DNA from: Thermobispora bispora DSM 43833
GTDB lineage: Bacteria > Actinomycetota > Actinomycetes > Streptosporangiales > Streptosporangiaceae
NCBI RefSeq assembly: GCF_000092645.1
Contig: NC_014165.1
Coordinates: 3,286,001 to 3,350,000, forward strand
Length of the DNA stretch: 64,000 bases
Direction of reading: 5' to 3'
Part shown: positions 8,416 to 59,903 of the stretch, piece by piece
How positions within the stretch are numbered: the first letter of the stretch is position 1
Layout: each line of letters starts with the position of its first letter
The notes under the pieces: model-generated
Database searches by the model: none
What the model saw: the letters and a program-made list of their open reading frames with translations, nothing else
What the model was told of the DNA's origin: nothing
Position numbers and translations under genes: made by a program

Positions 8416-9795
8416 ATGGTCGCCATGATCTCCCCGGCGGCCCCTGACTCCCCCACCACGGTTCCCTTCCGCGTGCGCCTCGGGTACGCGGTGGGCTCGT
8501 TCTGCACGGCCAACTTCCTGACCATCCCGGGCCTGCTGCTCCTCTACTACATGACCGAGCTCCTCGCGGTACCCGCGTGGCTCGCCGGAATCGTCCTCTT
8601 CCTCCCTAAGGCGTGGGATCTGCTGCTCAACCCGCTGGTCGGCCAGTGGTCGGACCGCACCCGCTCGCGCTGGGGCCCGCGCCGGCCCTGGCTGCTCGCC
8701 GGCGCGGCCGTGCTCCCCGTGTCGTTCGCCGCGATGTTCGCCGGCCCGCCGCTCACCGGGACCGCGGCCGCCGCGTACGTGGGCGCGATGTTCCTCGTGG
8801 CGGCGACCGGTTACGCGCTCTACGAGGTGCCGTACAAGGCGATGCCGGCGGAGATGACCACCGGCTACCACGAGCGCACCCGGCTCCTCGAGTGGCGGAT
8901 GATCTTCGTCGGCGTGTCCGTGGCGCTGAGCGGGATCGTCGCCCCGATGATCGCCGGGAATTCGCTCTCCGGCTACCGCCTCATGGGGATCGTCTTCGGC
9001 GCGATCCTGCTCGCCGCGATGCTCGGCTCGTTCTTCGGCACGGCCCGCGCGCCGTACGTCGGCCCGGAGACCACGGGGACGCTGCGGGCGCAGCTCGCCG
9101 CGCTCCGGTCGAGCCGGCCGTTCCTGCTGCTGCTCGGCTTCAGCTCGGCGCAGAACCTCGCGGTGGGGATCATGCTCGCCGGTGCCCCGTACTTCGCCGC
9201 GTACACGCTCGGCGACCCGGGCGGCACCAGCGCGGTGTTCGCCGCGCTCGTCGGGCCCATGCTCGTCACGAACCAGCTCTGGACCCGGGTGGCGCGCCGG
9301 CTCGACAAGCGCGGCGCCATGATCCTCGCCGGGGCGTTCCTCACCGTGGGCGGCCTGATGGTGATCGCCACGCCGGTGCTCGGCGCCGCGTACGCGTACC
9401 TGGCGGTGTTCCTCATCGGGCTCGGGTACGCCGGGGTCCAGCTCCTGCAGTACTCCATGCTCGCCGACGTGATCGCCCACGACTCCGCGGTCAGCGGGGA
9501 GCGCCGCGGCGGGGTCTTCACCGGCCTGTGGAACGCGATCGAGAACGCGATCTCCGCGCTCGGGGCGACCGTCTACGGCCTGGTGCTCGGCATCGGCGGC
9601 TTCATCTCCTCCGATCCGGCGACCCCCGTGGCGCAGCCGCACGGCGCCCTCGTCGCCGTGCTCGTCGGGGTGAGCGTGGTACCCGCCGTGATCGCGTTCA
9701 CCGGCGTGCTGCTGACGCTCAAGTACGACCTGACCGCCGATCGGTTCACCGGGCTGCAGCCCGGCCGTCCGGCGGAGCGGCCCGCCGCACGGTGA
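8416..9795 (+). CDS. GPH-family sugar/cation symporter (MFS)
   Basis: 459-aa inner-membrane transporter with about 12 hydrophobic segments. The loop after helix 2, DRTRSRWGPRRPWLL, is the hallmark of the glycoside-pentoside-hexuronide:cation symporter family (MelB-like). The substrate cannot be read from sequence; a glycoside or sugar is likely from family knowledge and would fit a cellulose-degrading host. There are two in-frame ATGs, 8416 and 8425, neither with a clear ribosome-binding site. It appears monocistronic. Confidence 0.85.
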   Translation: MVAMISPAAPDSPTTVPFRVRLGYAVGSFCTANFLTIPGLLLLYYMTELLAVPAWLAGIVLFLPKAWDLLLNPLVGQWSDRTRSRWGPRRPWLLAGAAVLPVSFAAMFAGPPLTGTAAAAYVGAMFLVAATGYALYEVPYKAMPAEMTTGYHERTRLLEWRMIFVGVSVALSGIVAPMIAGNSLSGYRLMGIVFGAILLAAMLGSFFGTARAPYVGPETTGTLRAQLAALRSSRPFLLLLGFSSAQNLAVGIMLAGAPYFAAYTLGDPGGTSAVFAALVGPMLVTNQLWTRVARRLDKRGAMILAGAFLTVGGLMVIATPVLGAAYAYLAVFLIGLGYAGVQLLQYSMLADVIAHDSAVSGERRGGVFTGLWNAIENAISALGATVYGLVLGIGGFISSDPATPVAQPHGALVAVLVGVSVVPAVIAFTGVLLTLKYDLTADRFTGLQPGRPAERPAAR

Positions 9796-9838
9796 TATTG
9801 AACGTGACGAACGTGATCTAAGTGTTAATTGGAAGAAA

Positions 9839-9866
9839 TTAGACATGTGAGAAAAATGTGTACAAT
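9839..9866 (+). promoter_or_regulatory. Candidate promoter of the CAP-protein gene
   Basis: An AT-rich island unusual for this window contains TTAGAC (9839-9844) and TACAAT (9861-9866) separated by 16 bp, 45 nt before the GTG at 9911. GGAGGAAGG gives a strong ribosome-binding site just before the start. Confidence 0.55.
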
Positions 9867-9910
9867 AATGGCCCTTCCATCCAGGAGTCGCCCCCCACTG
9901 GAGGAAGGCT

Positions 9911-10660
9911 GTGAAGAGAGCGCTCGGACTCGCCGTGTCCCTCAGCGGAATCGCGATCCTCGCCCCGGCGGCACCGGCGCAGGCGGCGGTCCCCGACGAG
10001 TGCCGGGTGACCGCCGGCACCCCGCGCCTCGCCGCGGACGGGATGATCAAAGCGACCGGCACCCGGACGGGGTGCCAGGAGCCGGCGACGCTCCGGGTGC
10101 GCATCTGGAAGGTCCTCACCGGCCCGGACCGGGCGGTGAAGAGCGTCGTCTCCCCGCCCGGCGCCGGACGGCTCACCGCGTCGGTGCGCTGCGCCAACGG
10201 CGTCTTCTACACGACGGTCACCGACTCGCTCGGCCGCGTCGCCCGGTCGAAGGCGGTGCGGCTCTCCTGCACGACCGTGGGCACCGCCATCGAGAACGAG
10301 GTGGTGCGCCTCACCAACCTCGAGCGGGCCAAGGCGGGCTGCAAGCCGCTCGTCCACGACCGCCGGCTCCGGCAGGCCGCCTACGCCCACTCAGCCGACA
10401 TGTCGGCCAGGAACTACTTCAGCCACACGTCCCTGGACGGGCGCACCTTCGTGGACCGGATCGAGGCGACCGGCTACCGGTACACGGCACTGGCCGAGAA
10501 CATCGCCAAGGGACACCCCACGGCCCAGGCCGTGGTGCGCGGGTGGATGGACAGCCCAGGGCACCGCAGCAACATCCTGGACTGCCGCTTCACGCACATC
10601 GGCGTAGGATACGTCAAGGCCGGAGGCCCGTACTGGACCCAGACCTTCGGCCGGTCCTGA
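9911..10660 (+). CDS. Secreted CAP/SCP-domain protein
   Basis: 249-aa exported protein. It has a short basic start, a hydrophobic core and a cleavage-like APAQA-AVP at about residue 25. A cysteine-containing N-terminal domain follows. The C-terminal CAP domain (about 125-249) shows NLERAKAGCKPLVHD, AHSADMSARNYFSHTSLDGR, AENIAKG and GWMDSPGHRSNIL, the classical conserved blocks with their His/Glu residues. Bacterial CAP proteins (YkwD type) are extracellular with mostly unknown roles. The GTG start is preceded by GGAGGAAGG. Confidence 0.88.
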   Translation: MKRALGLAVSLSGIAILAPAAPAQAAVPDECRVTAGTPRLAADGMIKATGTRTGCQEPATLRVRIWKVLTGPDRAVKSVVSPPGAGRLTASVRCANGVFYTTVTDSLGRVARSKAVRLSCTTVGTAIENEVVRLTNLERAKAGCKPLVHDRRLRQAAYAHSADMSARNYFSHTSLDGRTFVDRIEATGYRYTALAENIAKGHPTAQAVVRGWMDSPGHRSNILDCRFTHIGVGYVKAGGPYWTQTFGRS

Positions 10661-50674: not shown

Positions 50675-51925
50675 TCACCCGGCGGCGACCAGGCCGATCA
50701 GGACGGCGAGCACCGCGCCGACGGCGAGCAGCAGGGTCGTGGTGCTGAACAGGCTGCTCAGCAGGGCCCACACCGCCACGGCGCCCGTTCCCCCCACCGC
50801 GTCCGTGAGCACCCGGTCCCGGGCCCGCTCGAACATGCCGAGCCCGGCGTCGGCGAGCACCACGAGCCCGTAGAGCACGAGCAGGAGCAGGGAGAGCTCG
50901 GGGAGGTGGGTGCGCGCGGCCGAGGCGAACAGGCCGACCACCAGGGCGGAGCCGATGATCCACCGGCGGTGCACCTTGCGCCGGTGCCGCCGGCGCGCCT
51001 CCTCGGCCGCCGAGGGCGGCCGGCCACCGGGACGCCACTCCCGGGTGGGCTCATCGGCGGGGTTCCGGGCGGGGAGCGTCCTGGTCCGCGGCACCGCCCG
51101 CCGCGGCGGCGCCGACTGCGCCGCGGCGGCGTTCCCCCGCACCTCCGCCTCGATCCGCGCCACCACCTCGGCCGCCGTCGGCCGGGCCGCCGGGTCGGCG
51201 GCCATGCAGTCGACGAGGATCGCGGCGAGCCAGGGCGGCACCCCGGACAGGTCGGGGTCGTGGTGGACCACCCGGTAGGCGACCGCGGTCGGCGGCCCGG
51301 TCCCGTACGGCTGCCGCCCGGTCGCGGCGAAGGCCAGGGTCGCCCCGAGCGCGAACACGTCGGCCTCCGGCCCGGCCGCCTCCCCGTCGATCACCTCGGG
51401 GGCGAGGTAGCCGGGCGTGCCCACGACCAGCCCCGACGCGGTGACCGAGGCCGACTCCAGGGCGTAGGCGATCCCGAAGTCGATCACATAGGGCTCGCCG
51501 TCGGCGAGGATCACGTTCGCCGGCTTGAGGTCCCGGTGCACCACTCCGGCGGCGTGGATGGACGCCAGCGCCCGGGCGAGGCCGCGGGCCAGCCGGACGA
51601 GCCCGTCCCCCTGGATCGGTCCATCCTCCGCGATCACCGTGCTGAGCGGGCGGCCCTGGATGTACCGGGTGACGAGGTACGGCCGGGGTCCCGTGAGCGA
51701 GGCGTCGAGGATCTCCGCCACGTGCGGGCCGCGCACCCGGCGCATGGTCTCCACCTCGCGCGCCAGGCGGGCGAGGGCGAGGGAGTCGGCGGCGACGTGC
51801 GGATGGAGGACCTTGATGGCGACCGTGTGCCCCTCGGGGTCGAGGCCCAGGTACACCTCGCCGAACCCACCCGAACCGAGAGTCGAAAGGAGGCGGTACC
51901 TGTCCAACTGCTCCGGCGCGCCCAT
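50675..51925 (-). CDS. Membrane Ser/Thr protein kinase (first of three)
   Basis: 416-aa PknB-type kinase. The N-terminal kinase domain spans about residues 8-265, with GSGGFGEVYLG, the VAIK lysine, HRDLKPANV and VIDFGIA all intact. A short linker (to about 315) leads to about three to four C-terminal membrane segments. The usual arrangement of one membrane helix plus an outside sensor is not present. It shares VETMRRVR and GTPGYLAPEVI with the two kinases upstream. 43 nt follow the neighbouring kinase stop, so they may form one operon. Confidence 0.9.
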   Translation of the reverse strand: MGAPEQLDRYRLLSTLGSGGFGEVYLGLDPEGHTVAIKVLHPHVAADSLALARLAREVETMRRVRGPHVAEILDASLTGPRPYLVTRYIQGRPLSTVIAEDGPIQGDGLVRLARGLARALASIHAAGVVHRDLKPANVILADGEPYVIDFGIAYALESASVTASGLVVGTPGYLAPEVIDGEAAGPEADVFALGATLAFAATGRQPYGTGPPTAVAYRVVHHDPDLSGVPPWLAAILVDCMAADPAARPTAAEVVARIEAEVRGNAAAAQSAPPRRAVPRTRTLPARNPADEPTREWRPGGRPPSAAEEARRRHRRKVHRRWIIGSALVVGLFASAARTHLPELSLLLLVLYGLVVLADAGLGMFERARDRVLTDAVGGTGAVAVWALLSSLFSTTTLLLAVGAVLAVLIGLVAAG

Positions 51926-51968
51926 CCCGCTCCTCCTCGGTCCCGCGGCCGGCGGCCCGTCCCGCCGG

Positions 51969-53822
51969 TCAGTTCCAGAAAGTGAGGGAGCTCAATCCGA
52001 TCCTGTCCATGATGTCGCCGATCACACCACTGATCAGGTTGACGACCGTGTCCTCGCCCTTCCTTTTAAGGACGCTGACCACCTGGGTGATCGCGACCGT
52101 CGGCGGGCGCCAGGGCGCCCAGTGGGCGTCCGCCGAGAGCGCGATCATCGACGTGAACAGGGCGAGGACCGCGGCCACGATCAGGAGCACCCTCGCCGCG
52201 CCCGGTGTCCTGATCACCGCGCTCAGCGTCCGGGAGACCGCGGCGCGCGGCGCGGCCCCACCGGGGAGGATGAACAGCCCGGCGACGAACGCCCCGGCCG
52301 CGTAGGCGGCCGCCGGGTCGGTGCCGAGCCGGCCGATGTAGGTGAGCACGCCCCAGACGCACATGGCGAACATCGCGGCGAGCGGCACGTGGACGAGCGT
52401 GGCCAGCCCGCTCTTCACCACCGCCCACGGAGTGCGGAAGATCACGAAGAACGGATCGGTGATGCTGCTCCCCCGGACCGCGCGGCGCCGGGAGACCTCG
52501 CCGAATAGGTGGTACCCGACCCGCAGGCAGAACGTGGCCACGATCGCGAACAGGCTCACGGTGACCGGCACCATGCAGGCCAGGGCCACGAGGATCACCA
52601 GGAGCAGGGCGGCGAGCATCGGATGCCGCTCCCGGATCGCGGCCCGCTCGCCCGGCCACGTCCGGGGCGGGGCGGCCGGCGGGGCCGGTGGCGCCGCGGG
52701 CGGCGGGAAGACGCGCGGTGGCGGGACCGCTCCCGGGTGCCCGGCGACCCACCGGTCTTGGAACGGCGGGCCGGCCACCCGCTGGTCCTGGAACGGCGGA
52801 CGCGGGGGCGCCGCGGGCGGGGCCGCGTGCCCGGCCGGCGGCGGGGCGTAGGCGGCCGGGGCCGCGGCGGCCCGCTCGGCCGTCACGTAGTTCACCGGGG
52901 TGAGCAGGTCGGAGAAGTCGTCCGGGGCGCGCGTGCCGCCGAGCACCTTGGTCTCGCCCAGCGTCGACGCGTCGAGGAGCTTGGTCGAGCCGTCGCGCGC
53001 CTGTTCCTGCAGCTCGGCCACGGTGGGGTCGAGCTTCCGGGCGAGCCGGAGCAGCTCGGCCGCGGTCGGGCGGTCCGCGGCCTCCTTGGCGAGGGCGAGC
53101 CGCAGCCAGCCGCGCAGCCAGGCGGGGGCGAGGTCGAGCTGGGGCTTGCCCTCGAGGATGTTGTAACAGACCGCCTCGAACGCCCCCGATCCGAAGGGCG
53201 GCTGGCCGGTGGCGGCGAAGAACACGGTCCCGCCGAGCGCGTGGATGTCGGCCGCCTGCGTGATCTCCGCCCCGCGGATGATCTCGGGCGCCAGGTACCC
53301 GGGGGTGCCGACGAACATCCCGGTCTGGGTGAGCCGGGTGGCGTTCACCAGGTGGGCGATGCCGAAGTCGATGACCACGGGATCGCCGTCGACGAGGATC
53401 ACGTTCGCCGGCTTGAGGTCGCGGTGGATGACGTCGGCCGCGTGGATCGCCACCAGGGCCTCGCAGAGCCCGCAGGCCAGTCTGATGATCGCGTCGTCCG
53501 GGAGCGGGCCGTCCTCGAGCACGGTGTCCTCGAGCGTGCGCCCCGGCGCGTACTTCGTCACCACGTACGGCGTGGGCCCGGTGAGGTCCGCGTCGACGAA
53601 GGCGGCGACCCGGTCGCTGCGCACCCGGCGCATGGTGTCCACCTCGCGGATGAGGCGGTCCCGCGCCTTGAGGTCGGACGCCACGTGGGGGTGGAGCACC
53701 TTCACGGCGACCTCGGCCCCCGACGGATCGAGGGCGAGGTGGACCACCCCCATGCCGCCCTCTCCCAGCCTGCGGATCAGGCGGTACGGGCCGATCCGCT
53801 CCGGAGCCTCAGTAGCCGACAT
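51969..53822 (-). CDS. Membrane Ser/Thr protein kinase (second of three)
   Basis: 617-aa kinase. Kinase domain at about 10-265 with GEGGMGVVHLA, the VAVK lysine, HRDLKPANV and VIDFGIAHL. A Pro/Ala-rich segment (about 310-405, with the near-repeats PFQDQRVAGP / PFQDRWVAGH) leads to about four membrane segments (405-580) and a short cytosolic or outside end. GMFVGTPGYLAPEII is nearly identical in kinase 3. It overlaps kinase 3 by 14 nt, with GGGGGA upstream of the ATG. Confidence 0.9.
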   Translation of the reverse strand: MSATEAPERIGPYRLIRRLGEGGMGVVHLALDPSGAEVAVKVLHPHVASDLKARDRLIREVDTMRRVRSDRVAAFVDADLTGPTPYVVTKYAPGRTLEDTVLEDGPLPDDAIIRLACGLCEALVAIHAADVIHRDLKPANVILVDGDPVVIDFGIAHLVNATRLTQTGMFVGTPGYLAPEIIRGAEITQAADIHALGGTVFFAATGQPPFGSGAFEAVCYNILEGKPQLDLAPAWLRGWLRLALAKEAADRPTAAELLRLARKLDPTVAELQEQARDGSTKLLDASTLGETKVLGGTRAPDDFSDLLTPVNYVTAERAAAAPAAYAPPPAGHAAPPAAPPRPPFQDQRVAGPPFQDRWVAGHPGAVPPPRVFPPPAAPPAPPAAPPRTWPGERAAIRERHPMLAALLLVILVALACMVPVTVSLFAIVATFCLRVGYHLFGEVSRRRAVRGSSITDPFFVIFRTPWAVVKSGLATLVHVPLAAMFAMCVWGVLTYIGRLGTDPAAAYAAGAFVAGLFILPGGAAPRAAVSRTLSAVIRTPGAARVLLIVAAVLALFTSMIALSADAHWAPWRPPTVAITQVVSVLKRKGEDTVVNLISGVIGDIMDRIGLSSLTFWN

Positions 53823-55938
53823 GCCGTCCCCCGGTTTCCGCTTGGTCGCGCAGCTCCTTCAGACGATCTATCACTGACTGAACGTTGAAGGGAGGCGCGA
53901 AGTGCCCTGACGTCTCCTTACCCGTGAACGTGCCGAGCGTGAGCGCGGCGAACAGCGCCGTGACCGCGCCGATGCCCAGGACCACGGCCTTGGCCGTTCC
54001 CCCGTCGGGCACCAGGGCGGCGAGCGTCCGCTCGAGCTGGCCGGTCGGCGCGCGCACCCCGGGCCCGGCGCAGACCGTCCAGAGCGCCACGGCGAACCCC
54101 CAGCTCACCGCGGCGGAGGGGTGCATCGCGGTGACCAGGCTGTTGAGCAGCAGGGTCACCGCCGTCCCGAGCAGCGCCCCGTACGGGATGAGGGCGATCG
54201 TCACCAGGGCCGACCTGATGAGCGCGGCCGGGTCGGCGAGCACGCGCAGCACGCCGGCGGAGCCGGCCGGGTGCCCGGCCGCGAGCCGCCGGTGCGCGAT
54301 GTCGGCGGCGCGCAGCAGCACGACCGCCGGGAGCGTGATCAGCAGGGCCGGCTTGGGCATGAGGACGGCGAGCAGCCCCAGCGCGGCGAAGGTCAGCGCG
54401 GCCCCCGCCCGGTACACCCGGCCCCCGGCGGGCGCGGGCCGCGGGGTGGGGAACGGCGGCGGCGGTGCCGTGTCCGGGAGCTCGGAGGGGCGCAGCCGGA
54501 GCGTGGGGTCGACCTCCGGGCCGTGCGGCTCGCGTGGCGGCAGCCCGCCGGCCGGCCGCCCGCGGTCGGCGTACGGGTACGCGCCGGCCTGGCGGAGCTC
54601 CGCCGAGGTGACCCGCCGGGTCGGGATGTCCCCCTCGGCCAGCCCGGGGCCGGGGTGCGAGGGCGGCGTGTGGGGCGGGTGCGCGGGCGGCTGCGGGGTG
54701 ACCGGGCGGGAGTGCGCCGCCGGGGCCGTCCGTGCGCCCGGCGCGGTGCGCTGCCCCTCGGCGGGGGGCGCGCTCGCGCGGCGCAGGTCGTCGCCGGTCA
54801 CCCGCACGGTCGGGAACGGGTCCCCGGGCCCGGTCGTGGCGTCGCCGGTCCCCGGCGCGGCGGGCCGGTCCGCGGACATGCCGGTCTGCGGCATCGCGAC
54901 CATCCCGGTCTGCGGCATCGCGACCATGCCGGTGTGGGGCATCGCGGCCGTCCCGGCCTGCGGCGGGGCCGCCATGCCGGTCTGCGCCGCCGCGGCCCCG
55001 GCCGGGGGCGCGGCCGTCCCGGGCGCGGACGGCGAGGTGACGGCGGGGCGCGTCCGGGCGCCGGTGTCCGGTGCGGCGGGGCCACCGCCCGCCTCGCCGA
55101 GGTTCGGCACCGTGGTGATCATGTCGGGCCTGCGGGGCGCGCCGGACGGTGACCGTAACCGGGCCACCCACTGGGCGAGCTCGGCCGCGGTGGGGCGCTT
55201 CTTCGGGTCGCGGTTGAACGCGGCGCGCAGCACGGGCTGGAGGATCGGGGGCGCGGCGTCGATGTTCGCCCGCCCCGAGGTGATGTTGTAGAAGATCATC
55301 TCCAGCGTGCCGGTGCCGAACGGCGGCTCCCCGGTGGCCGCGAAGAGGATCGTTCCGGCCCAGGCGTGGATGTCCACCTCGGGGCCGGCCTCGCCGCCCT
55401 GGATGATCTCCGGGGCGAGGTAGCCCGGGGTGCCGATGAACATGCCGGTCTGGGTGAGCCGGGTGGCGTCGACCGCCTGGGCGATGCCGAAGTCGATCAG
55501 CACGGGGCGGCCGTCGACCATGAGCACGTTGCCGGGCTTGAGGTCGCGGTGCACGACCCCGGCCGCGTGCACGGCGGCGAGCGCCTCCGCCACCCCATGG
55601 GCCACCCGGAGCAGGGCGTCCAGCGGCAGCGGCCCCTCTTCCTTTACGATCTTGTCGAGCGAGGGACCGGGAACATAGCGGGTGACGATATAGGGGCGGT
55701 GGCCGGTGACGTCGGCGTCGAGGACCTCGGCGATGTACTCGCTGCGCACCCGGCGCATGGTCTCGACCTCGCGGGACAGCCGCCGGCGGGCGACGTCGTC
55801 CCCCGCCACCTCCGAGCGCAGCACTTTGAGGGCCACCTGCCTGCCGTACGGGTCGAGAGCGAGGTGGACCACTCCCATACCGCCCTCACCGAGCCGCCGC
55901 AGCAACCGGTATGGGCCCAGACGCTCGTCTTCTTTCAT
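53809..55938 (-). CDS. Membrane Ser/Thr protein kinase (third of three)
   Basis: 709-aa kinase, the first gene of the kinase cluster. Kinase domain at about 8-265 with GEGGMGVVHLA, VALK, HRDLKPGNV and LIDFGIAQ. A long low-complexity Pro/Ala/Thr-rich stretch (about 280-500) contains three tandem 24-bp units encoding MPQTGMVA-like repeats (54877-54948). About four to five membrane segments follow (505-690). The three kinases are paralogous in the catalytic part but differ in the tails, which suggests duplication and later change of the sensing parts. Confidence 0.9.
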   Translation of the reverse strand: MKEDERLGPYRLLRRLGEGGMGVVHLALDPYGRQVALKVLRSEVAGDDVARRRLSREVETMRRVRSEYIAEVLDADVTGHRPYIVTRYVPGPSLDKIVKEEGPLPLDALLRVAHGVAEALAAVHAAGVVHRDLKPGNVLMVDGRPVLIDFGIAQAVDATRLTQTGMFIGTPGYLAPEIIQGGEAGPEVDIHAWAGTILFAATGEPPFGTGTLEMIFYNITSGRANIDAAPPILQPVLRAAFNRDPKKRPTAAELAQWVARLRSPSGAPRRPDMITTVPNLGEAGGGPAAPDTGARTRPAVTSPSAPGTAAPPAGAAAAQTGMAAPPQAGTAAMPHTGMVAMPQTGMVAMPQTGMSADRPAAPGTGDATTGPGDPFPTVRVTGDDLRRASAPPAEGQRTAPGARTAPAAHSRPVTPQPPAHPPHTPPSHPGPGLAEGDIPTRRVTSAELRQAGAYPYADRGRPAGGLPPREPHGPEVDPTLRLRPSELPDTAPPPPFPTPRPAPAGGRVYRAGAALTFAALGLLAVLMPKPALLITLPAVVLLRAADIAHRRLAAGHPAGSAGVLRVLADPAALIRSALVTIALIPYGALLGTAVTLLLNSLVTAMHPSAAVSWGFAVALWTVCAGPGVRAPTGQLERTLAALVPDGGTAKAVVLGIGAVTALFAALTLGTFTGKETSGHFAPPFNVQSVIDRLKELRDQAETGGRHVGY

Positions 55939-56034: not shown

Positions 56035-56550
56035 TCAAAGAGCCAGGGATAGGACCTCTGCTCCGGTCGCCTCGACGAGCGCCGCACCGGAAAGCGCCAG
56101 CTTGGAGCGGCGCAGCCCGCTGCCGATCACCACGAACGGCCGGCGCGTAACGTTTTCATCAACGAGCACCGGCCAGTCCTCCGGCAGCCCGATGGGCGTG
56201 ATGCCGCCGTACTCCATGCCGGTGAGCGACACGGCCTCGTCGTGCGGCGCGAACGACGCCTTCCTCGCCTCGAGGTGGCGGCGGACCACCCCGTTGATGT
56301 CCGCCCGGTGGCTCGCGAGCACCATCACCGCGGCGTACCGGGTCTGGCCGCCGCGCTTCGCGGCGACGATCACGCAGTTCGCGGAGTCCTCCGGCGCGAC
56401 GCCGTAGTGCGCGCAGAAGGCGGCCGTGTCGGCGAGCTCGGGGTCGATCGCGGCCACCTTGGCGTCGATCCCCTTGGCGGCCACGGCCTTGGCCGTCGGC
56501 TCGGCGAGCAGGTCGGGCCGGTCCGCGGCCGGCACCCATTCGAGAGCCAC
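56035..56550 (-). CDS. YbaK/ProX-type aminoacyl-tRNA deacylase
   Basis: 171-aa single-domain protein of the YbaK/prolyl-tRNA-editing family, which removes misattached amino acids (for example Cys or Ala) from tRNA. The GGITPIGLPEDWPVLVDENV block is the family hallmark, and the Lys in VIVAAKRGG is at the expected catalytic place. The GTG start is preceded by GAAGGGAGGG. Which tRNA it edits is not readable from the sequence. Confidence 0.85.
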   Translation of the reverse strand: MALEWVPAADRPDLLAEPTAKAVAAKGIDAKVAAIDPELADTAAFCAHYGVAPEDSANCVIVAAKRGGQTRYAAVMVLASHRADINGVVRRHLEARKASFAPHDEAVSLTGMEYGGITPIGLPEDWPVLVDENVTRRPFVVIGSGLRRSKLALSGAALVEATGAEVLSLAL

Positions 56551-56647: not shown

Positions 56648-57490
56648 TCACCCGTAGATCCCGCTGCCGCAGGCCACCCCGCCGCCGATCATCGAGAAGA
56701 TCCCGAGGAGCGCCATGATCTCGTGATAGTCATCGGTGGTGAACTCGGTGTGGCGGGGCCCGGCCCGGCGGACCCCGGGCACGATCGCGCACGCGGCCGC
56801 GATCGCGGTCGAGTTCCACTCCACCCCCAGGGTGTACGGCGGGGGCACCACGTACGGGCGGAGCTCACCGAGCCTGCCGAGCGCCCGGGCGGCGGCCTCG
56901 CGGATCCTCCGGTGGGCGGCCTCGGGCGGGAGCAGCTCGGCGGAGAACCGGTCGATGCCCTTCTTGACCGCGACGGTCTCCACGTCCCCGAGCACCTCCC
57001 GGGCCTCCTCGCAGGCCGCCTCGTCCCCGGTCACGAGCGCCACGGGCACGCCGAGCGAGCCGGCGAAGCCGGCGACCAGCCGCGTCTCGCCGCAGATCTC
57101 GCCGTTGAGGTAGAGGTTGTGGATCTCCTTGCCCATCCACGTGTGGTTGAGCACCCCGTGGGCGACCCCGGCGCGCGCGTGGTACCCGATGAAGAACGCT
57201 GCCGCGAAGTCCGCGGTCAGGCCGTGCCCCATCCGGTACGGCTTGCCCGGCCCTCTGATCAGCGTGGCCCGGGGGTCGAGCAGGTCGATCCGGAGGTTCT
57301 TGGTCGAGCCGTGCGCGTCGTTGACCACCACGGCCCCGGCGCCGGCCGCGAAGGCGCCGTCGATCGCCGCGTTCGCGTCCCCCGTCATCAGCTCGCAGCC
57401 GCGCTCGTACCCCCGTCCGCCCTGCACCATCTCCTCGGGGTCGGTGAGGCCGGTCACCCCCTCCATGTCCACCGACAGGTAGATCTTCAT
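56648..57490 (-). CDS. M55-family D-aminopeptidase (DppA-like)
   Basis: 280-aa zinc peptidase of family M55. It has SVDMEGVTGL (Asp and Glu ligands), NDAHGST, GYHARAG and VLNHTW, and EICGETRLVAGFAGSLGVPVALVTGD. Known members release N-terminal D-amino acids and act on D-Ala peptides. No signal peptide is seen. The start codon overlaps the stop of the PP-loop gene (ATGA), so the two proteins are probably made together. Confidence 0.9.
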   Translation of the reverse strand: MKIYLSVDMEGVTGLTDPEEMVQGGRGYERGCELMTGDANAAIDGAFAAGAGAVVVNDAHGSTKNLRIDLLDPRATLIRGPGKPYRMGHGLTADFAAAFFIGYHARAGVAHGVLNHTWMGKEIHNLYLNGEICGETRLVAGFAGSLGVPVALVTGDEAACEEAREVLGDVETVAVKKGIDRFSAELLPPEAAHRRIREAAARALGRLGELRPYVVPPPYTLGVEWNSTAIAAACAIVPGVRRAGPRHTEFTTDDYHEIMALLGIFSMIGGGVACGSGIYG

Positions 57491-58713
57491 CGCTCCCCCC
57501 ACGTCTCCACCTGGCGGGCCTGGTCCTCGGTCATCAGGCCGACCTTCTGCACCAGGCGTGTCTCGACCTGTTCCCGCCAGGGCGGGGGGATCTCCTCGAG
57601 CGCGGGGGGATAGTAGTGGTCGAGCCAGCTCGTGGACTCGATCGTCGGCGCGAGGTACTGCGCGGCCTTGGCGAACGGGGTGTGCTCGATGCCGGGCACC
57701 CGGGCGCAGCCGTAGGCGACCATCTCCTGCCCGCCGTACGGCGGAGGCTGCTGCCACTTGCGCGCGGGGACGCTGTCGGCGGTGAGGGTGGTGCGGAGCG
57801 GGCGGCGCTCGATCGCCGCCTGGATCAGCTCCTTGTACAGGCACTTGCCGCACCGGCCGCACGGCCCGTCCCCGGAGCCGCGCAGGCACCAGCGGACCAG
57901 GTCGCGCAGGTCGGACTCGAGCGCGAGCCGCATGGTGACGGCCTCGCTCACCCCGCCGACCGGGAGCACCATGGGCAGCCCGGCCGCGGCGAAGAGCCGG
58001 CCCCACTTGCCGTGCGCCGCCCACATCGGGTTGTCCGGGGTGTACCGGTGCACGTAGCGGCCGCCGCCGAGCCAGCGGGAGCCGAGCTCGTACCCGAGCG
58101 CGACGCCGCCGAGGTCGAGCTCGTCGGCGAGGAGCAGCGCGCCCACGGTCACCGCGTGGTGCTCCGGGTATCCGGGGCGCGGGAAGCTGAGCACGAACTC
58201 CAGGTCGGACTGGACGACGGTCACGTCCCGGCCGGTACGGCGGGCGAGCTTGGCGAGCACGTCGGAGCGGTAGTGCGTCCACCGGTTCGGCACCCTGGGG
58301 TGGCTCACCCGCTGGAAGTGCACGAACGGGACGTCCGGGAAGATCGACGCCACGGCCATCGAGTCGGCGCCGCCGCTGTAGGAGAGGGCGAGGCGGCTCC
58401 CGGACCGGGGGTCCTCGCCGACCGGCCCGGCGTCCACGCCCCACCCGGTGCGGAGCGCCTCGGCGACCGCGGGGGAGATCGGCCGGTCGAAGGTCACCCG
58501 CCGCCGGGTCCACGGCGCCGCCACGGTCCACGCCGCCACGGCGAGGAGGTCGGGGTGGACGCTCGGCACCGGGTACGGCAGGCGGACGTGGCAGGAGTTG
58601 GTGCGCAGCTCGAGGCGCTGGCCGTCGGTGCAGGTCCCGGTGGTCTCATCCTCGGGGTCGAGCAGGAAGGCCAGCCGCCAGACGCCGTCGTCGTGGGTCC
58701 ACGTCACCCGCAC
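57487..58713 (-). CDS. PP-loop ATPase-like protein of unknown function
   Basis: 408-aa protein. Residues 1-105 are a domain I do not recognise. The adenine-nucleotide alpha-hydrolase motif SGGADS lies at 113-118. A cysteine cluster CGRCGKC (Cys 285, 288, 291, with Cys 276 before) could bind zinc, as in QueC-like proteins. PP-loop enzymes adenylate an acid or a carbonyl before attack by a nucleophile. The substrate is unknown. It is coupled to the M55 D-aminopeptidase by a 4-nt overlap and follows the coiled-coil gene by 6 nt. A GTG at 58707 is an alternative start. Confidence 0.7.
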   Translation of the reverse strand: MRVTWTHDDGVWRLAFLLDPEDETTGTCTDGQRLELRTNSCHVRLPYPVPSVHPDLLAVAAWTVAAPWTRRRVTFDRPISPAVAEALRTGWGVDAGPVGEDPRSGSRLALSYSGGADSMAVASIFPDVPFVHFQRVSHPRVPNRWTHYRSDVLAKLARRTGRDVTVVQSDLEFVLSFPRPGYPEHHAVTVGALLLADELDLGGVALGYELGSRWLGGGRYVHRYTPDNPMWAAHGKWGRLFAAAGLPMVLPVGGVSEAVTMRLALESDLRDLVRWCLRGSGDGPCGRCGKCLYKELIQAAIERRPLRTTLTADSVPARKWQQPPPYGGQEMVAYGCARVPGIEHTPFAKAAQYLAPTIESTSWLDHYYPPALEEIPPPWREQVETRLVQKVGLMTEDQARQVETWGER

Positions 58714-58719
58714 GGATCG

Positions 58720-59082
58720 CTACCCCGCCTGCCGCGCCTCGGTGGCCAGGCGCGCCCGCAGCTCGTCGATGGCCTGCCAGACGCGCACCTCGTTCTGGAG
58801 CACCTTGTCGAGCGCCGCGGCGGTCTCGGTCGCGAGGCGGTGCGCCTCGGCCACCCGGGGATCGGAGGCCGGCGCGGCCTGGGCCGGCCGCCCTTCGGCC
58901 GCCTTACGGAGCCGGTCGACCTCCTCGCGCAGCCCGACGAGCTCGCGGCGGAGCATGTTGATCTCCCAGAGCGTGTCCTTGATGTCCCGCCGGTGGGAGG
59001 TCGCGGTGACGTACCGGGCGTCTAATCGGGCCAGCAGCCATCTCCGCACGGGCGCGAGCGCGCGCACGACGATCCGTCTCAT
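58720..59082 (-). CDS. Small basic coiled-coil protein
   Basis: 120-aa protein. The N-terminus is Arg-rich (MRRIVVRALAPVRRWLLARL), followed by a predicted coiled coil (INMLRRELVGLREEVDRLRK), an Ala/Pro linker and a second helix. No catalytic motif. The ATG at 59082 was preferred; a TTG at 59103 is possible. Only 6 nt from the PP-loop gene, so it probably belongs to that transcription unit. Function not assigned. Confidence 0.6.
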   Translation of the reverse strand: MRRIVVRALAPVRRWLLARLDARYVTATSHRRDIKDTLWEINMLRRELVGLREEVDRLRKAAEGRPAQAAPASDPRVAEAHRLATETAAALDKVLQNEVRVWQAIDELRARLATEARQAG

Positions 59083-59129
59083 GTACCGCCACAATAGCCG
59101 CAATGTTCACGGCTCGGCGGCCTTGAAGA

Positions 59130-59903
59130 TCACCGTCCGGTGAACGTGGGCCGGCGCTTCTCCGCGAACGCGGTCAGGCCCTCCCGCGCGTCCTGCGTGG
59201 CGAACAGCCCGGAGAACTGCAGCCGCTCGATCTCCAGGCCGGTGTCGAGATCGGTCTCCAGGCCGCGGTCGATCGCCTGCTTGGCCGCCCGGAGCGCCAC
59301 GGCGGGCCCGTTGACGAAGCGGGCGGCGAGCTCGCGCGCCGCCGGGTACACCTCGGCGTCCGGCACCACCGTGTCGACGAGGCCGATGGCGAGCGCCTCG
59401 GCCGCGCCCACGTGCCGGCCGGTGAAGATCAGGTCCTTGGCCTTGGCGGGCCCGATGAGCCGGGACAGGCGCTGCGTCCCCCCGGCCCCGGGGATGATCC
59501 CGAGGGTGATCTCCGGCTGGCCGAGGGTGGCGCCCTCCCCGGCCACCCGGAAGTCGGCGCAGAGCGCGAGCTCGCACCCGCCGCCCAGCGCGTACCCGTT
59601 GATCGCGGCGATGACCGGCTTGCCGATCCGCGCGACCGCGGTGAAGCAGTCCTGGAGGACCCGGGAATGGGCCGCCATGTCCGCGTACGACATGGCGGCC
59701 ATCTCCTTGATGTCGGCGCCCGCGGCGAACACGTGCTCCCCGCCGTAGAGGATGACGGCGTGGACCTGCGGGTCCGCGTCGGCGATCCTGGCCGCCTCGG
59801 CCAGCTCGAGCTGCATCTGCCGGTTCAACGCGTTGAGCTTGGGCCGGTTCAGCCGGATGGTCGCGATGTGCTCGGCGACCTCGACCCCGACGAAGTCCCC
59901 CAT
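59130..59903 (-). CDS. Enoyl-CoA hydratase/isomerase family protein
   Basis: 257-aa crotonase-fold enzyme of beta-oxidation type. It has the oxyanion-hole segments FAAGADIKEM and GYALGGGCELALCAD, and PEITLGIIPGAGGTQRL with the first catalytic Glu. At the place of the second catalytic Glu of hydratases (EMVLTG in rat) it has DLIFTG, an Asp, so activity could differ. It sits between the unknown cluster and the glucan cluster and seems to have its own transcript. Confidence 0.88.
   Translation of the reverse strand: MGDFVGVEVAEHIATIRLNRPKLNALNRQMQLELAEAARIADADPQVHAVILYGGEHVFAAGADIKEMAAMSYADMAAHSRVLQDCFTAVARIGKPVIAAINGYALGGGCELALCADFRVAGEGATLGQPEITLGIIPGAGGTQRLSRLIGPAKAKDLIFTGRHVGAAEALAIGLVDTVVPDAEVYPAARELAARFVNGPAVALRAAKQAIDRGLETDLDTGLEIERLQFSGLFATQDAREGLTAFAEKRRPTFTGR

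Follow-up and report, generated by a model that had tools for sequence, protein, structure and literature searches.

A DUF6395 protein of Thermobispora bispora with a QatC-like predicted build, encoded beside a small coiled-coil protein

QueC-like enzymes have recently been shown or proposed to modify proteins, and the examples described in the available parts of PMC13279940, PMC13329287 and PMC11996544 are anti-phage systems. According to the available text of PMC13279940, QatC (from qatABCD; PDB 9y01 and 9y02) and Cap9 each act with a dedicated partner protein; QatC binds QatB at a ratio of 1:1, and the reaction of QatC is left unresolved there. Here we describe a three-gene locus of Thermobispora bispora DSM 43833, encoding a small coiled-coil protein (CC), a PP-loop protein of the family DUF6395 (PP) and a protein of the M55 D-aminopeptidase family (M55). 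Our preferred reading, which we put at a probability of about 40%, is that PP is an amide-forming ATP pyrophosphatase of the QueC superfamily, with a QatC-like three-part build, paired with CC through the C-terminal helix of CC. The window is the whole stretch of 64,000 nucleotides that was analysed, part of a genome that consists of one contig of 4,189,976 bases. Labels beginning with G, L and g denote sampled genomes, loci and genera, respectively. The three genes share the minus strand; their features, in window positions, are as follows.

58720..59082, minus strand: CC, small coiled-coil protein of 120 amino acids from an ATG at 59082 (in-frame TTG at 59103), with a basic N-terminal part and first coil, a linker and a conserved second helix
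58747..58851, minus strand: C-terminal segment of CC, about residues 78-112, ..HRLATETAxALDxVLQNEVxxWQAID..
57487..58713, minus strand: PP, DUF6395 protein of 408 amino acids with a GTG start, consisting of an N-terminal domain (1-103), a QueC-type PP-loop core and a helical C-terminal extension
58360..58377, minus strand: SGGADS phosphate-binding motif of PP, residues 113-118
57841..57888, minus strand: zinc-type motif of PP, C276-x8-C285-x2-C288-x2-C291, a pattern named in the available part of PMC13329287
56648..57490, minus strand: M55 D-aminopeptidase family protein of 280 amino acids with an ATG start, overlapping PP by 4 nucleotides

A sequence-only reading of the window had placed these three genes where the coordinates confirm them, with 6 nucleotides between CC and PP and the 4-nucleotide overlap between PP and M55. 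The description of CC as basic and as a coiled coil is a judgement by eye on its sequence, and CC has no Pfam match above the cut-off. PP matches the full DUF6395 profile (PF19932) with an E-value of 8.7e-71 and 237.9 bits, against a cut-off of 25. It had been called an unassigned PP-loop protein: the PP-loop part of that description holds, with an SGGADS motif that satisfies the QueC-type SGGxDS and a predicted QueC-type fold, and the word unassigned gives way to DUF6395. The CxxCxxC cluster noted at that time is real (C285, C288 and C291) and is extended by a fourth invariant cysteine, C276, to C(x)8CxxCxxC, with an x7 spacing in some relatives. The QueC substrate motifs YxQxHxxE, VPxRN and YPDC, taken from the available part of PMC13329287, were not seen by eye at their places in PP. 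A search of the PP sequence against solved structures gave no match at E-values up to 1, and the best match of the PP profile was a sulfur transferase at 0.1. No known tRNA or nucleotide pathway was found to claim PP, and in the literature searched DUF6395 is unmentioned, nor was a described PP-loop/M55 operon, M55/oxidase/coiled-coil association or M55/Streptosporangiaceae link found there.

A structural model of PP was built with AlphaFold2 from 51 sequences, with a mean predicted local distance difference test (pLDDT) of 84.7; residues 1-105 folded alone without an alignment reached a pLDDT of 48. Foldseek searches with the full model returned QatC as the only match below 0.001 (3.0e-6, template modelling score, TM, 0.36). 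VIA-align also ranked QatC first (Z 11.6, root-mean-square deviation 4.9, 281 positions aligned, model residues 1-346), followed by QueC (Z 10.1 with 178 aligned, and 9.8) and Cap9 (Z 9.8 with 164 aligned), with the remaining PP-loop enzymes at Z 8.4 and below. Like PP, QatC as described in the available part of PMC13279940 has about 400 amino acids, an N-terminal extension, a helical C-terminal extension and a QueC-type core with SGGxDS and four cysteines; it too is without the residues that recognise 7-carboxy-7-deazaguanine (CDG). CC is a candidate for the place of its dedicated partner. The zinc patterns differ, being C(x)8CxxCxxC in PP and C(x)19CGxCxxRR in QatC, and unlike in the QatC system the small protein here is a coiled coil that lacks a glycine N-terminus and the setting is not one of defence. 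QueC shares with PP the PP-loop fold, SGGxDS and C(x)8CxxCxxC, but PP has no match to the QueC family (PF06508) at E-values up to 0.1, and its invariant S256-E257 is placed by hhalign near the QueC threonine-lysine that follows the core; no CDG pathway was found in the host. Cap9, from the type IV cyclic-oligonucleotide-based anti-phage signalling system (CBASS; PDB 9nto), has a QueC-like core and acts on a partner protein; unlike PP it has about 185 amino acids and keeps the CDG motifs, and its partner is a cGAS/DncV-like nucleotidyltransferase (CD-NTase) with an MGGS N-terminus. PP is thus a member of the QueC superfamily with a QatC-like build that lies outside both QatC and QueC by their defining features.

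The gene set was compared across 55 loci, comprising 54 from a genome scan, presumably all from genera of Streptosporangiaceae, and one plasmid-collection record from Nonomuraea gerenzanensis. The loci nearest by PP come from Streptosporangiaceae genera. CC stands beside PP in 54 of the 55 loci, M55 in 47, a flavin amine oxidase in 49 and a YbaK-type gene in 47, although some of the absences may reflect contig ends (L011 ends after M55). The order in related loci is CC, PP, M55 and then the oxidase, which resembles the L-amino-acid oxidase roLAAO and lies between M55 and YbaK in most relatives. PP and M55 overlap by exactly 4 nucleotides in 31 of 47 loci. The sequence-only reading had joined PP to M55, and this pair is indeed kept in 47 of 55 loci, but it is not obligatory, and the tighter partner of PP is CC. 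DUF6395 was matched in 112 of 297 genomes sampled from the order, a sample drawn from a larger group, in 10 of 296 from the class and in 1 of 198 from the phylum, namely the present genome. Phage records gave no match to PP, or to a cousin from Priestia described below, at the limits used.

Comparison of the two sets of matches in the 297 genomes revealed 111 with both CC and DUF6395, 13 in which CC alone was matched and a single one (G321) in which DUF6395 alone was, CC being found in 124 in all. Two of the DUF6395 matches, in G321 and G350, are remnants. A full-length DUF6395 profile match is present in 110 genomes, and CC is present in every one of these, with its C-terminus kept as judged from profile coordinates. 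Fourteen genomes carry CC and no intact PP, and CC was read in all of them. In 12 (seven of g162, four of g170, and G274) CC ends directly after the first coil, and in 8 of these 12 loci the CC stop and the M55 start share one base. In G378, only 27 PP codons are left and the CC motif WQAVD is replaced by RRAAG. The locus of G321 (L209) holds a PP remnant of 65 codons, an intact M55 and 22 oxidase codons, and no CC was found there. The CC C-terminus is kept in loci that have lost M55 or the oxidase instead. On a FastTree phylogeny of M55 and YbaK (51 taxa with both genes, no support values printed), PP losses occur in four or more places, each surrounded by PP-bearing loci; G350, absent from the tree, is a fifth case. 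The shortened CC gave ratios of nonsynonymous to synonymous substitution rates (dN/dS) of 0.23, 0.02 and 0.03 in three pairs, that is, purifying selection. For PP, M55 and the relatives' oxidase dN/dS was below 1 in every pair tested, and for the two halves of CC likewise, apart from a value of 1.04 for the N-half in the very slightly diverged pair L031 and L056 and two values that are undefined. The best-supported conclusion is that the closest partner of PP is CC, not M55. On the simplest reading, the C-terminal segment of CC works for PP and the first coil does something else; we infer a physical partnership of the two proteins and a single transcript.

Several observations weigh against this reading. 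The g162 and g170 loci form one clade on the tree, so the 12 truncations amount to about two events, with G274, and the independent support that they give is small. Because CC and PP are adjacent, one deletion could remove the 3' half of CC together with PP without any functional link, and G378 alone suggests decay in place rather than physical removal. In G350 (L212:197-1579) a PP remnant of about 58 codons, plus a few of the first ones, lies between an intact CC and an intact M55, so that the CC C-terminus has outlived PP in breach of the rule; this PP deletion may be recent. No oxidase was found in the 7 kb read around the G350 locus. Second copies of DUF6395 occur without an adjacent CC in Streptosporangiaceae bacterium NEAU-GS5 (L023) and in G366. 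CC is without the N-terminal glycine of the QatB and CD-NTase type and has a variable tail, and terminal conjugation is not indicated. The modelled resemblance to QatC (TM 0.36, with 10-14% identity) falls in a range in which remote similarity is frequent, and hhalign of PP to a two-sequence QueC alignment was weak, covering the zinc segment only with a probability of 22. The polysaccharide setting of a Priestia homologue, given below, points the same way.

The operon copy of NEAU-GS5 (L007) has SSGADS in place of SGGADS (G114S), and its solo copy (L023), without CC or M55 neighbours, keeps SGGADS. Since the L007 copy carries this change, the L023 copy may serve the CC of L007 in trans. The L023 protein departs from 11 of 175 conserved columns, five of them in the loop 207-235 (P 0.0015, with the loop picked post hoc). 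This loop was considered as a CC contact and is not relied on, as it also deviates at three columns each in L031 and L056, both of which have CC.

M55 matches PF04951 with an E-value of 2.9e-97 and 325.7 bits over profile positions 1-262 of 264, bearing out its earlier assignment as a D-aminopeptidase family protein, and its gene is the sole M55 match in this genome. It belongs to the same family as DppA, the D-aminopeptidase of Bacillus subtilis (PDB 1hi9; PF04951), over residues 1-258 (E-value 5.9e-47), but falls below the NCBIfam DppA equivalog cut-off (NF058634; 206 against 430 bits) and has different neighbours. Family membership predicts that M55 hydrolyses D-aminoacyl peptides. The fourth gene of the relatives encodes the flavin amine oxidase, which matches the L-amino-acid oxidase of PDB 2jae, an enzyme we take to be from Rhodococcus opacus, at 1.8e-121. 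By eye, the N-terminus of the relatives' oxidases shows a twin-arginine-like stretch, and these enzymes are probably exported. The oxidase family is common, with matches at E-values up to 1e-120 in 139 of the 297 genomes, some of them without PP. No oxidase orthologue was found in the T. bispora genome, and for this reason the link to the oxidase was invisible from the window.

Seven genomes with a PP locus lacking M55, all of unstated completeness, were searched whole. In four (G497, G499, G501 and G502) the only M55 proteins lie elsewhere and show 41-46% identity, and the search found no M55 in G496 and G500. In G498, a displaced M55 orthologue of 77% identity lies elsewhere in the genome beside an oxidase of 65%. 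The M55 of G316 has the same coordinates and E-value as that of G498, with CC-PP on the same contig at a distance of about 14 kb, and the two are probably the same genome. The pair of PP and M55 is real but separable, and M55 and the oxidase are separable modules. In Sphaerisporangium album, an open reading frame (ORF) of 2103 amino acids (L030:10236-16547) lies downstream of CC-PP at the place expected for M55 and the oxidase, which are found elsewhere in that genome.

Searches of the T. bispora genome gave no match for PTPS (QueD) or QueE, with G331 positive in the same searches, and the only trace of QueC was a 61-position stretch at 9.6e-4. With QueC, QueD and QueE not found in this genome, a 7-deazaguanine substrate is unlikely, and the substrate here is unlikely to be CDG made by the known route. 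Among 20 genomes searched for QueE and PTPS, 10 had neither (this genome and nine others, which appear not to make CDG), six had PTPS only and four had both (G280, G331, G438 and G440). Since the first three of these four carry DUF6395, some DUF6395 hosts may make CDG. In G331, a Streptosporangiaceae genome, queD, queE and queC lie side by side (L112:4856-7826), adjoining an ORF that by eye resembles tRNA-guanine transglycosylase; this is possibly a DNA 7-deazaguanine system.

The locus is flanked by two genes that recur at related loci.

56035..56550, minus strand: YbaK-type aminoacyl-tRNA editing domain protein, a syntenic neighbour in 47 of 55 loci
59130..59903, minus strand: enoyl-CoA hydratase gene, upstream, a syntenic neighbour in 45 of 55 loci

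Beyond YbaK, window positions 50675-55938 contain three tandem ORFs resembling Ser/Thr protein kinases, two of which (51969-53822 and 53809-55938) have matches in 52 of 55 related loci.

It is quite possible that the genes are neighbours by descent, M55 having come first in the order enoyl-CoA hydratase, M55, kinase, with CC, PP and the oxidase inserted later and PP and M55 sharing no pathway. Exactly that order, with no recognisable CC, PP or oxidase, is found in three g190 genomes, and M55 probably occupied the site first. M55 is also the more widespread, in 238 of the 297 genomes against 112 for DUF6395, and each occurs without the other: six sampled genomes keep PP but have no M55 orthologue, and g162, g170 and others have M55 but no PP. 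The gene junctions argue the other way, as the 4-nucleotide overlap of PP and M55 is exact in most loci and the one-base overlap of CC and M55 recurs in 8 of the 12 loci after PP loss.

The main rival, possible although we doubt it, is that DUF6395 proteins and their long PP-loop cousins modify surface glycans at carboxyl groups, by amidation or by the attachment of amines or amino acids, with CC a membrane scaffold only and M55 and the oxidase unrelated neighbours. In Priestia megaterium, a polysaccharide cluster on a plasmid includes a DUF6395 gene (24.5% identity) together with UDP-glucose dehydrogenase, GalU, a pyruvyltransferase and glycosyltransferases, and the same cluster holds two further proteins of 401-402 amino acids with SGGVDS and C(x)8CxxCxxC. 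One of these Priestia cousins matches 19 plasmid records, 15 of them non-Priestia, and in all four of the 15 that were viewed (three haloarchaea and Pseudobutyrivibrio) carbohydrate genes surround the match. The divergent second DUF6395 copy of G366 (26% identity) likewise lies by ORFs that by eye resemble glycosyltransferases and polysaccharide deacetylases. At the CC-PP-M55 locus itself, however, no sugar-nucleotide or polysaccharide gene was recognised, apart from a glycosyltransferase further upstream in 34 of 55 loci and a glycogen-debranching gene in 22 of 55, and the locus keeps its place beside the enoyl-CoA hydratase and YbaK genes.

The proteins of about 400 amino acids in these carbohydrate clusters (Priestia L086:7482-8687 and 8887-10095; L131-L134, among them haloarchaeal and Pseudobutyrivibrio plasmids) are annotated as hypothetical. 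The two Priestia cousins that were read match the DUF6395 and QueC models weakly (0.009-0.045). Spore coat protein genes lie close to Priestia glycan clusters (L130:6509-7289 and L135:21837-22615), hinting at a spore-surface glycan, and the annotation of the L130 plasmid includes a DUF6395 gene.

The sequence-only reading proposed that a PP-loop ligase and M55 together make, modify or remove a D-amino-acid compound or cell-wall fragment. The identity of the M55 family, its DppA-like sequence and the amino-acid-handling nature of the relatives' fourth gene fit such a pathway, which we nevertheless regard as quite unlikely: nothing specific speaks for it, the eight window genes scanned include no adenylation domain, racemase or D-Ala ligase, the oxidase resembles L- rather than D-amino-acid oxidases, and M55 is missing from two PP-bearing genomes. 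Taken as a whole, that interpretation is partly supported.

A deazaguanylation or anti-phage system of the type IV CBASS or qatABCD kind is very improbable, since the resemblance of the PP fold to QatC and Cap9, the small partner gene upstream and PADLOC matches to broad enzyme types (the relatives' oxidase to C3a186 at 4.6e-33, the window kinase to PD-T4-6 at 5e-62) stand against the lack of any PADLOC match for CC, PP, M55 or YbaK, the failure to find QueC, QueD or QueE in this genome, the missing glycine N-terminus of CC, the absence of both QatA and QatD from the scanned window neighbours (enoyl-CoA hydratase, CC, M55 and YbaK; the relatives were not searched by name), and chromosomal neighbours that are the same in most loci rather than those of a variable island. 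A role in anti-phage defence is accordingly unlikely.

On our preferred reading of PP as an amide-forming partner of CC, PP would engage the C-terminal helix of CC and use ATP to activate a carboxylate for amide formation, the target being CC itself or a substrate held by CC at the envelope. Amide-forming chemistry is most likely by analogy with the superfamily. Two conjugation sites on CC were considered and set aside: the N-terminus was rejected, as no Gly2 or MG[TG]S motif was seen by eye at the candidate starts of 54 loci, and the C-terminus is unsupported, the tail being variable. M55 and the relatives' oxidase, co-oriented and separable, would most simply clear away or recycle the amino acids or D-peptides involved, and we infer that they have roles in one process. 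A further proposal, speculative and unlikely at present, is that the locus represents a third, non-immune QueC-type system acting on proteins, which would attach some group that is not 7-deazaguanine to the CC C-terminal helix, or attach it with the aid of that helix, and would be stably inherited in Streptosporangiaceae, with M55 and the exported oxidase as an editing or recycling arm.

A QatC-like relative at a stable chromosomal site provides a non-defence case with natural deletion variants. The C-terminal segment of CC is usually lost together with the enzyme, which allows both substrate and partner to be tested. These findings suggest a use for DUF6395.

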